A stretch of DNA of 33,171 nucleotides, from positions 1 to 33,171 of the IMG/VR virus record IMGVR_UViG_3300042516_002063; one strand, 5' to 3'. Both the position numbers and the translations under genes were made by a program. Shown in pieces: positions 2,352-32,100 of the stretch. Below the pieces are notes generated by a model, which saw only the letters and a list, made by a program, of their open reading frames with translations, ran no database searches and was not told the DNA's origin. How positions within the stretch are numbered: position 1 is the first letter of the stretch; every line of letters begins with the position of its first letter. This DNA comes from a virus.

Positions 2352-2774
2352 TTAACTGCGGCTGTGCAATTTCTGCAGGGCAAGCTTCACCCTGTGGTCA
2401 GCACGATTCAGTCGGGTGATAAACTGATCGAGGTCTTTGCGCTCGTCCTTGGCTGCCTCGATAAAGTCGGCAGGCAAGGGCAGCTTGGGCCACTTGTGCG
2501 TCTTGATAAGCTTGAACGCAGCGGCCTTGAACTTGTAGCTTGGCATGTCTTTCAGCGCACCGAAGTAGAGCTTGATGCCTAACGTGCTGGGCACACTGAC
2601 CTGGAGCATCTCGGCCATTGAACCTAGCACATCGACTATCTCTTCACGGCTAACAGGCGGGAGCGCTTGCTCCACTTGTGAGCAAGCAAGCGCGAACGCA
2701 TTGGCTGCCGTCTCCAGATTCTTCTCGCCGTAGTGCAGAATCTCCCATGACAGGGTGCTAGCCGGCATCTCCAT
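2352..2774 (-). CDS. Probable lambda P-like helicase loader (140 aa)
   Basis: This lies immediately downstream of the O-like initiator and overlaps its end by 17 bases, the same order as lambda O-P. The C-terminal half has a pattern seen in DnaB-loader-type phage proteins: an aromatic YFGALKDMPSYKFKAAAF helix, then THKWPKLPLPADFIEAA, then a charged helix. No Walker motif is present, which fits P-like rather than DnaC-like loaders. The start is uncertain: ATG at 2774 or 2768, both with weak ribosome sites. Earlier starts would overlap a well-conserved part of the initiator. The loader call rests on position and pattern. Confidence 0.6.
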   Translation of the reverse strand: MEMPASTLSWEILHYGEKNLETAANAFALACSQVEQALPPVSREEIVDVLGSMAEMLQVSVPSTLGIKLYFGALKDMPSYKFKAAAFKLIKTHKWPKLPLPADFIEAAKDERKDLDQFITRLNRADHRVKLALQKLHSRS

Positions 2775-3387
2775 CCAATGCCGCAAGGAGTCGAGCTCGA
2801 TTGTCTTGAGTTCGGCTGGCAGCGTTGTTGCTGGGTCGCTGACGTTGGTAAGTTGACGACCGCCTGATCCAGTTGCGCCAGGTTGCTCGCCAGTCGACCA
2901 TCGTTTTCCCGTTTCCGATCCAGTAATCACGGAACCTATCTGTTTCATTGATCGCCTCCACATTTGGGAACGCCTGTCGCGCCCATTCCAAATCGTCGTC
3001 GGTAGGAACCCAGTCAGGCGAGAGCCGATGCGGCGCAGCCTTCTTAGGTTTTGGTTCTTGATGGTTATATGATGGTTTGGGGGCATCTGCTGCCCCCCTC
3101 CCCGGCATCTCCTGCCCCTCCCCCCGGCACGTGGTGCCCCCCTCTAATTTATAAGAGGAACTACGTCCGATCTTGTGAGTGGTGGTAACAAGGTCCCGCT
3201 CCTCGAGCCGACGCAGTGCTATGCGAACAGCCCTCTCGGACAGCGAGGTATACAGGCAGACACGAGCAACCGATGGCCAGCAGTCACCTGTTGGATCGGC
3301 ATGATTTGCGAGTGCTATAAGGACAGCCTTGTCAGCAGGGCTATCTAATGGTAACTGGAAAGCCCAGTTCAGCATCTCTATGGACAT
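2758..3387 (-). CDS. Replication initiator-like protein with N-terminal winged helix (lambda O type, 209 aa)
   Basis: Residues 1-80 form a HTH_36-like winged helix (LIALANHADPTGDCWPSVAR, then LSERAVRIALRRLEERDLV). Phage replication initiators use this to bind origin iterons. Residues about 84-102 are a Gly/Pro/Glu linker encoded by the iterons themselves. The C-terminal domain holds LSPDWVPTDDDLEWARQAFP and DWRATWRNWIRRS, typical of phage replication proteins that contact the helicase-loading machinery. The ATG at 3387 has AATGGAGGGAGA upstream. The P-like gene follows. The iterons in the middle of its own gene make an O-like role likely. Confidence 0.85.
   Translation of the reverse strand: MSIEMLNWAFQLPLDSPADKAVLIALANHADPTGDCWPSVARVCLYTSLSERAVRIALRRLEERDLVTTTHKIGRSSSYKLEGGTTCRGEGQEMPGRGAADAPKPSYNHQEPKPKKAAPHRLSPDWVPTDDDLEWARQAFPNVEAINETDRFRDYWIGNGKTMVDWRATWRNWIRRSSTYQRQRPSNNAASRTQDNRARLLAALDGDAG
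3082..3138. repeat. Three 22-bp iterons with dyad symmetry; putative replication origin
   Basis: Three copies of GGCA-N5-TGCC start at 3082, 3104 and 3126, giving a period of exactly 22 bp. On the minus strand the cores are GGCACCACGTGCC, GGCAGGAGATGCC and GGCAGCAGATGCC. The first two are followed by G-rich 9-mers. An AT-rich stretch (CTAATTTATAAGAG, 3144-3157) follows directly. Because 22 is not a multiple of three, the copies are read in different frames, so the repetition is kept at DNA level. The arrangement matches the lambda origin, where iterons plus an AT-rich region lie inside the O gene. Confidence 0.75.
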
Positions 3388-5945: not shown

Positions 5946-6449
5946 TTAGGCGGCTTCCTCCGAAGCCACCTCGACACCGCCACCGCGCGTCATCTCACCG
6001 TCGATGCCATACCGCTTGGCAGCATCGAGTGCCGCGCTCTGGAACTTGCGTTCCGCCTGCGGCTTGATGGTCGGAGTGACGAAGCGTTCGTCCGTGTGCT
6101 GTTCGTAGCGATACGTTGCAGCTTCGAGCACCTGTTCCAGGTGGACGATCTGAGTCTCGATCCGCTGAGCCCAATCGATGGCACGAGCCAGCTGAACCTC
6201 GGAAAGCTCATCACCCCGGTGCGACTTGGCAGCCAGGCGAACCTTGGCGACGGCCTCATCGTGGCTGGTCTTGCTGGACTGGAGCGTCATCGCGGCGGCG
6301 TAGCAGATGCCGTTGAGGATGCGCTTCTGTGCATAACCGAGCTTGTTGCGACGGACGATCTGTCCTTCCTTCGTCTGATACTCTTCAATCTCAGTCATGA
6401 ATTCCGCGATGGTCTGGATCGCTTTGGACATAGCAGTAACTGAAGTCAT
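5946..6449 (-). CDS. First leftward gene, helical phage protein of unknown function (167 aa)
   Basis: I chose the ATG at 6449 because of ACACGGAGAACTACC upstream. The protein is mostly helical and charged: SKAIQTIAEFMTEIEEYQTK, IVRRNKLGYAQKRILNGICYAAAMTL, a long amphipathic IDWAQRIETQIVHLEQVLEAA helix, then a Gly/Glu-rich tail. No domain is recognised. It is the first gene of the leftward unit. It is followed at once by a UUCG terminator, so it is expected to make a short, abundant early transcript, as for a host-takeover or DNA-binding protein. That role is inference. Confidence 0.8.
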   Translation of the reverse strand: MTSVTAMSKAIQTIAEFMTEIEEYQTKEGQIVRRNKLGYAQKRILNGICYAAAMTLQSSKTSHDEAVAKVRLAAKSHRGDELSEVQLARAIDWAQRIETQIVHLEQVLEAATYRYEQHTDERFVTPTIKPQAERKFQSAALDAAKRYGIDGEMTRGGGVEVASEEAA

Positions 6450-31231: not shown

Positions 31232-31534
31232 CTACCTAAGATTGATAGAGTCCTTCTTCTTGTATGGATGGAGGTCTATGTTATTCTTCTTTGCCCATGT
31301 GGAGTAGGCTTCCAGGAACATCTTATTGCTATCGCATGTCTGGTTGACCAAGTTGAACTGCCCGCCTTGACTCGGCGCATCTTTCAACCTGGGCAATTCG
31401 AGAGACATGGCTCGATGATAAATTTGCTTCTTGGTTACCTGTAGTCTCATTGCAATCTCGTTACCGTTGATCTTGCCCCACAGGTTCTTGAGCATTTCAT
31501 CCTGTTCTTTCGTCCACAGGTGCCGTGTGTTCAT
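31232..31534 (-). CDS. Myb/GcrA-like DNA-binding protein (100 aa)
   Basis: The N-terminus reads WTKEQDEMLKNLWGKINGNEIAMRLQVTKKQIYHRAMSLEL, the Trp-rich three-helix pattern of Myb/SANT or GcrA-type DNA-binding domains (WTxEQ...L...EIAxxLxxTxxxIxxRAxxLxL). The rest (NLVNQTCDSNKMFLEAYSTWAKKNN, then basic) is not recognised. It overlaps the DnaA-like gene by 38 bases. It may regulate transcription. The target is unknown. Confidence 0.75.
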   Translation of the reverse strand: MNTRHLWTKEQDEMLKNLWGKINGNEIAMRLQVTKKQIYHRAMSLELPRLKDAPSQGGQFNLVNQTCDSNKMFLEAYSTWAKKNNIDLHPYKKKDSINLR

Positions 31535-31817
31535 CTGCTTCTTTCTCCATCAAGGCGCACAATGCATCAAAGCCAGGATAGGCCAGCCTAAGCTGGGCCG
31601 CCTTAGCTATGCCGTGAAGCACTGTTGAGTGATCCCGATTGCCAAGCAGCCTGCCAATCTCTGGAGATGATAGGCCTGCCCGTCGAAGCCCGAGCATGAT
31701 TGACCATCGAGCGTGAACAATGTGGCTCTCCCTCGATGCACCAATCAACTCGGACTTCGTAACTTCCGCTTCTTTACAGGCAATGGCTACTAACTTTGGG
31801 AAGAGTCCAATCTTCAT
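31497..31817 (-). CDS. Stand-alone DnaA domain IV-like protein (106 aa)
   Basis: Residues 31-72 carry the DnaA C-terminal DNA-binding domain: SHIVHARWSIMLGLRRAGLSSPEIGRLLGNRDHSTVLHGI. The GxRDHSTVLHG signature contacts DnaA boxes in the host initiator. No ATPase domain is present, so it may bind host DnaA boxes or compete with DnaA rather than initiate by itself. I chose the ATG at 31817, though no good ribosome site is visible. Longer starts overlap the gene stopping at 31834. Confidence 0.85.
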   Translation of the reverse strand: MKIGLFPKLVAIACKEAEVTKSELIGASRESHIVHARWSIMLGLRRAGLSSPEIGRLLGNRDHSTVLHGIAKAAQLRLAYPGFDALCALMEKEADEHTAPVDERTG

Positions 31818-31833
31818 CCGTGGGTATACCGGC

Positions 31834-32100
31834 TCACGTCTGAAATGCGCGGACGCGGTCGGCAACCAGCTTGGCATAGCCAGCAATGTCATCCCAGCTG
31901 TCTGCGTAGTTGGGGTCGCCATTGATAATCCTCCCAATCTTGTTAGCAATCATCTCGAGGGCTTCCTTGTGGTCGTACTCAAGATTGTCCAGGTCGGCAT
32001 GAAGAAAGATCGCGCCCTTGATCCCTTGTGCAATGCGGGCTTGATCGAGGAAAGCGCCGTAGCGCCTTCCCCTTTCTGTTAGAACATCATCAATGTTCAC
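31834..32100 (-). CDS. DUF6378-like phage protein (88 aa)
   Basis: GTG start at 32100, overlapping the upstream stop as GTGA. The sequence shows VLTERGRRYGAFLDQARIAQGIK and EALEMIANKIGRIINGDPNYADSWDDIAGYAKLV. The ERxxRYGxF...KIxRIxxGDPxYxDSWxDIAGYAxLV pattern is widespread in phages, as I recall under DUF6378. Histidine and acidic positions resemble helical nucleotide-binding MazG-like folds, but this is weak. Confidence 0.8.
   Translation of the reverse strand: MNIDDVLTERGRRYGAFLDQARIAQGIKGAIFLHADLDNLEYDHKEALEMIANKIGRIINGDPNYADSWDDIAGYAKLVADRVRAFQT

Follow-up and report, generated by a model that had tools for sequence, protein, structure and literature searches.

An array of three dyads and a tandem repeat, AACCRTCA, that follows it very probably serve a podovirus-type phage as its replication origin, located in the part of the initiator gene that codes for the linker; the initiator would bind the dyads and the duplex would open at the AACCRTCA repeats. 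The stretch analyzed (the window) covers an IMG/VR virus record over its full length, 33171 bp. Three GGCA-N5-TGCC dyads with a 22-bp period had been described in the first-pass annotation, and both positions and spacing were reproduced (22 and 22 bp exactly, from start to start; Table 1). Allowing up to three mismatches, the triple at this exact spacing appears once in the window and in none of 100 dinucleotide shuffles, and the GGCA-N5-TGCC dyad, counted singly, appears seven times against 1.1 expected. The copies are read in three different reading frames, which rules out a protein repeat as their cause, and synonymous-codon shuffles that kept the protein reached the array score of the window in none of 100 trials and in one of 300. 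As had been proposed, the repetition thus serves the DNA and not the protein.

Table 1. Features of the putative origin and neighbouring genes in the window.
Feature	Position	Strand	Sequence	Remarks
Dyad iteron, last in gene sense	3082-3094	none (listed on +)	GGCATCTGCTGCC	
Dyad iteron, middle	3104-3116	none (listed on +)	GGCATCTCCTGCC	
Dyad iteron, first in gene sense	3126-3138	none (listed on +)	GGCACGTGGTGCC	
Dyad CCTCT-N8-AGAGG	3141-3158	none	CCTCTAATTTATAAGAGG	AT-rich patch of the first-pass annotation; gene-5′ side of the array
Second element, repeat 1	3070-3077	-	AACCATCA	Starts at 3077; the middle base of the last dyad is 11 nt away
Second element, repeat 2	3059-3066	-	AACCATCA	Starts at 3066, 11 bp after repeat 1
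Second element, repeat 3	3049-3056	-	AACCAAAA	Degenerate; starts at 3056, 10 bp after repeat 2
60-bp 3′ flank with AACC repeats	3022-3081	-		Candidate unwinding element; AT 0.52
O-like initiator gene	2758-3387	-		209 aa; winged helix at residues 16-66, linker (disordered) at 85-114, weak likeness to DnaT in the C-terminal domain
Downstream gene	2352-2948	-		198 aa; position alone makes it a candidate helicase loader; 191 bp shared with the initiator gene, in a different frame

The gene that carries the array codes for a protein with an HTH_36 winged helix at the N-terminus (9.8e-12, 44.9 bits over a Pfam cut-off of 25), and its best PHROG was phrog_1032, replication initiation (5.1e-25). The same N-terminal domain is found in the phage genes annotated as HTH_36, ‘primosomal protein I’ or ‘replication initiation protein’ (phrog_1032). 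The C-terminus gave a weak match to the DnaT DNA-binding domain PF17948 (15.7 bits for a cut-off of 25, E 0.013), and the best PDB folds were winged-helix regulators, also weak matches. In the AF2 model (mean pLDDT 74.9) both domains are confident and residues 85–114 are below 50; this disordered stretch is largely the one encoded by the dyads, so that the array falls mainly in the linker-coding part of a replication-initiator gene, where it had been placed before.

Relatives were gathered through the neighbouring gene and a profile, giving 60 non-redundant genes; a search of genome contigs with the protein gave no further relative. The synonymous-shuffle test detected a significant dyad array in 38 of the 60 and the scan found none in the remaining 22, against 1 of 140 neighbouring ORFs, and this sole positive was a protein repeat. 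In a set of 156 loci examined later, 111 had significant arrays, and lambda O and P22 gene 18, our positive controls, passed the scan. In the homologous genes the arrays are located at nt ~245–355, with dyad spacings that cluster at 22 and, in the 5′ part of the array, at 17. The alignment of homologues suggested as a check therefore came out in favor of the dyads, which are kept at the equivalent place while the residues drift. The half-sites differ between clades: GGCA-N5-TGCC in the window and in relatives L021 and L022, GGAAC-N3-GTTCC in L023 (three copies at 22 bp), L065 and L067, TGTCA-N3-TGACA in L024 and L026, and TGCCA-N3-TGGCA in L071 and L072. L021 and L022, with proteins 57–59% identical, have four dyads, and the spacers on the gene strand are C-rich in them and G-rich in the window (3082–3147), so that the array looks inverted with the frame still open. 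Over the whole set the gene-strand spacers are G-rich in 10 genes and C-rich in 45. Arrays are also present in the named phages PotUPM1, Bcep176, Microcystis phage Mvi-Yong1342-1, mEp010 and Pam5, and in the stretches of their records examined no origin was marked at the array site. In Pseudanabaena phage Pam5 (L100, 5001–5603) an initiator-like ORF with a significant array is found where the public record annotates no CDS.

We have compared the recognition helix of the initiators with the half-sites after a cull at 65% identity, which corrects for the tree only in part. The similarity of the dyads followed that of the recognition helix over and above the other parts of the domain (partial Mantel 0.37, reached by none of 500 permutations), and the strongest covarying residues were mostly at helix positions 50–56. 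In 46 genes below 65% identity, residue 55 goes with the sixth base from the dyad centre (R with G, Q with C and I with T; Fisher p 3e-7 for R/G), and R52 was accompanied by G at the fifth base in 34 of 37 cases. The window agrees with this code, having R52 and R55 together with GG. In a small held-out set (n = 14), R52–G was found in 11 of 11, Q55–C in 5 of 6 and R55–G in 3 of 6, and a trend linking residue 56 to base 3 was not repeated there. This covariation points to an initiator that binds the dyads inside its own gene.

Directly 3′ of the array there is a second element, absent from the first-pass annotation, made of AACCRTCA copies that follow one another in tandem on the gene strand every ~11 bp. 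Over the 60 genes AACCRTCA appears 66 times against 8.1 in synonymous shuffles, and GAACCRTCA words in the 3′ flanks of the relatives are far above the synonymous expectation. The exact word is missing in 24 of the 60, and many carry variants such as AACCACCA or AACCATTA. Neighbouring copies (near variants counted) are 10–12 bp apart in 43 of 48 cases, and the first one is located 10.5–11.5 bp from the centre of the last dyad in 18 of 33 genes and in 29 of 36; outside this register it is found mostly about one turn later. We have also searched viral and genome loci for a pattern of three AACCRTCA copies, with no protein input. Among the matches listed, 90 of the 120 from viruses fell within the ORF of an initiator wHTH and shared its strand, as did 36 of the 117 from genomes; none of those listed had the pattern on the strand opposite to the initiator ORF. 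The ~30 listed viral matches (of 120) outside the wHTH model include initiator fragments at contig ends, and others are simple CCGTAA-type or protein repeats. The genome loci, which are prophage-like, include Bifidobacterium, Mycetocola, Alistipes, Campylobacter and many Proteobacteria. Among open-access papers, the scope of our literature search (subscription journals lie outside it), the letters AACCRTCA appeared as a word only in primers and unrelated texts. Separately, two loci (L133 and L202) have tandem AACCATCAAGCAACCATCA in ORFs that the wHTH model does not match and that may code for other replication proteins.

The AT-rich patch reported beside the iterons does exist, but it is located 5′ of the array, and in the relatives the AT-rich side is 3′. 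Over 38 genes the AT content of the 3′ flank was 0.527 against 0.432 gene-wide (Wilcoxon p 3e-10), an excess that is modest in the window itself, with 60-bp flanks of 52% AT at each side of the array. Judged by the relatives the patch is on the wrong side, and we have rejected it as the unwinding element; the AACCRTCA tract is a better candidate for strand opening.

AACCRTCA is common to phages with unrelated iterons, and this constancy, over initiators with differing C-termini, suggests that the variable domains of the initiator may play no part in reading it. It could then be the site of a host factor, or an effect of composition, outside the initiator complex, only the dyads being iterons of the initiator. 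We consider this unlikely, though deserving of attention, given that the register to the last dyad is near base-exact in most genes, that the hosts range over Proteobacteria, Actinobacteria, Bacteroidota and Campylobacter, and that composition is controlled by the synonymous shuffle.

In the origin that we favor, winged-helix initiator dimers would bind the 22-bp-spaced dyads through the recognition helix, forming a nucleoprotein complex that would then spread, with the register fixed, over the AACCRTCA repeats, of which there is one for each helical turn. The passage from dimers on 22-bp dyads to 11-bp repeats in register suggests one continuing complex, from the duplex sites to the strand-opening tract. 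The duplex would open at the AACCRTCA tract, with one strand probably held, and the host helicase would then be loaded, perhaps by the product of the downstream gene, as its position hints. The dyads could double as autoregulation sites. A wider proposal, for which we find the case evenly balanced, is that many phages and prophages of several bacterial phyla share this two-part origin: clade-specific dyads with a partly legible code and then, at a constant half-repeat distance, a near-universal 11-bp-phased AACCRTCA by which one opened strand is captured, with one protomer per helical turn from the duplex iterons onto the melted tract.

Two readings would dispense with an origin or with a DNA function. 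The dyads sit inside an operon and the winged-helix fold of the initiator resembles transcription regulators, so they might be operators by which the initiator represses or tunes its own operon, with no origin; we hold this to be very improbable, as in all the relatives they are ~250 nt into the coding sequence, away from promoters, the array is register-locked to an AT-rich 11-bp repeat, the family is annotated as replication initiation, and the layout is that of ori-lambda, for which the binding of O and the function as an origin are both established (PMC7466680). That selection should act on the peptide of the linker or on hairpins in the mRNA is hardly credible at all, in spite of linkers rich in Pro/Gly/Ser, of dyads that could every one fold as an RNA hairpin and of an AACCRTCA that is in the EPS frame in 48 of 66 copies, since the dyad copies are in different frames, AACCRTCA itself is read in all three, arrays and AACCRTCA exceed the protein-preserving synonymous shuffles, and the half-sites covary with the recognition helix.

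An origin inside the initiator gene is a known arrangement; the specificity code and AACCRTCA in register are what is added here. In lambda and in P22 gene 18, imperfect inverted-repeat iterons 20–24 bp apart are found in the middle of the initiator gene with an AT-rich tract 3′ (PMC7466680), and the putative origin described here is of this lambda-type kind, with iterons mid-gene and, in 38 relatives, the AT-rich tract 3′. There are differences as well. Lambda has four iterons plus an AT-rich region inside gene O and the window has three dyads, with a different half-site. The initiator belongs to HTH_36/phrog_1032, with its weakly DnaT-like C-terminus, and not to PF04492, the lambda O family, which gave no match to it at E ≤ 1 (lambda O itself, as a control, was matched at 5.7e-36). 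The 11-bp AACCRTCA repeats present here are absent from lambda and from P22, and also from some of the relatives; PF06992 does not match the next gene. Membership of the lambda O/P families was rejected, since both PF04492 and PF06992 were absent by Pfam. What remains of the lambdoid replication module proposed earlier is therefore a probable origin inside the initiator gene, with its dyads and their covariation, but not the lambda O and P families; the functional reading was probably right and the family label wrong.

Lambda O binds the iterons without the AT tract, which is still needed for unwinding (PMC7466680), and there is no solved structure of lambda O on iterons according to PMC10797057. 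The unwinding elements of ori2 of V. cholerae (RctB) and of the RK2 origin (TrfA) contain short direct repeats, six ATCA and four GGTT respectively, which the cognate initiator is believed to prefer (PMC10316083). AACCRTCA contains RTCA, and its complementary strand GGTT, a likeness of short words only, and those origins are not described in PMC10316083 as being inside the initiator gene. At oriC a double-stranded DnaA box is closely followed by DnaA-trio repeats bound as single strand (PMC10797057); the protein family is a different one, and the repeats are of 3 nt there and 11 bp here. The iterons diverge and AACCRTCA does not, a difference that sets the sites recognised by the phage initiator apart from the needs of strand opening. 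Origins in uncultured phages could be located, and the specificity of their initiators partly predicted, by sequence alone, and AACCRTCA offers a concrete candidate, amenable to mutation, for the way in which DNA is opened by lambda-like initiators.

The downstream gene had been called P-like. A candidate loader gene does adjoin the iterons, with a GGAGG-like site before its ATG and homologues (34–59% identity) that adjoin O-like genes, but PF06992 is absent and nothing in Pfam, PHROG or the PDB, by sequence or by fold, was matched by the protein. Its AF2 model being weak (pLDDT 62), a distant kinship may have escaped the comparison of folds. PHROG, PDB profile and AF2/Foldseek thus gave no identification as loader, a role for which its position makes it a candidate. 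Third-position changes were fewer in the overlap of both genes (18 of 59) than upstream (43 of 78). In addition, a block of 29 nt at 2920–2948 (minus strand), ATGAAACAGATMGGTTCCGTGATYACTGG, is coding in two frames (MKQIGSVITG and ETDRFRDYW) and is nearly identical in relatives of 34–59% protein identity; no more than 11 contigs of IMG/VR carry it.

At the level of the genome, a T7-type portal (PF12236, 1.2e-95) and nozzle (PF25675, 2.8e-14) were matched in two genes. The T7-like virion module is supported by these two genes, and the idea of a mosaic stands. The GC skew, at coarse scale, has no sharp turn at the locus and was uninformative on the origin. The window contains one DnaA box, at 6336, and none near the array. 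Another O-like initiator, that of locus L050 (1314–2276), has a C-terminal part that resembles the DnaA N-terminal domain (PF11638, 3e-4, below the cut-off). Besides, the window codes for a 150-aa protein (31497–31949, minus strand) with the C-terminal, DnaA-box-binding domain of DnaA (PF08299, 2.7e-14), which a circular genome would place fairly near the origin.
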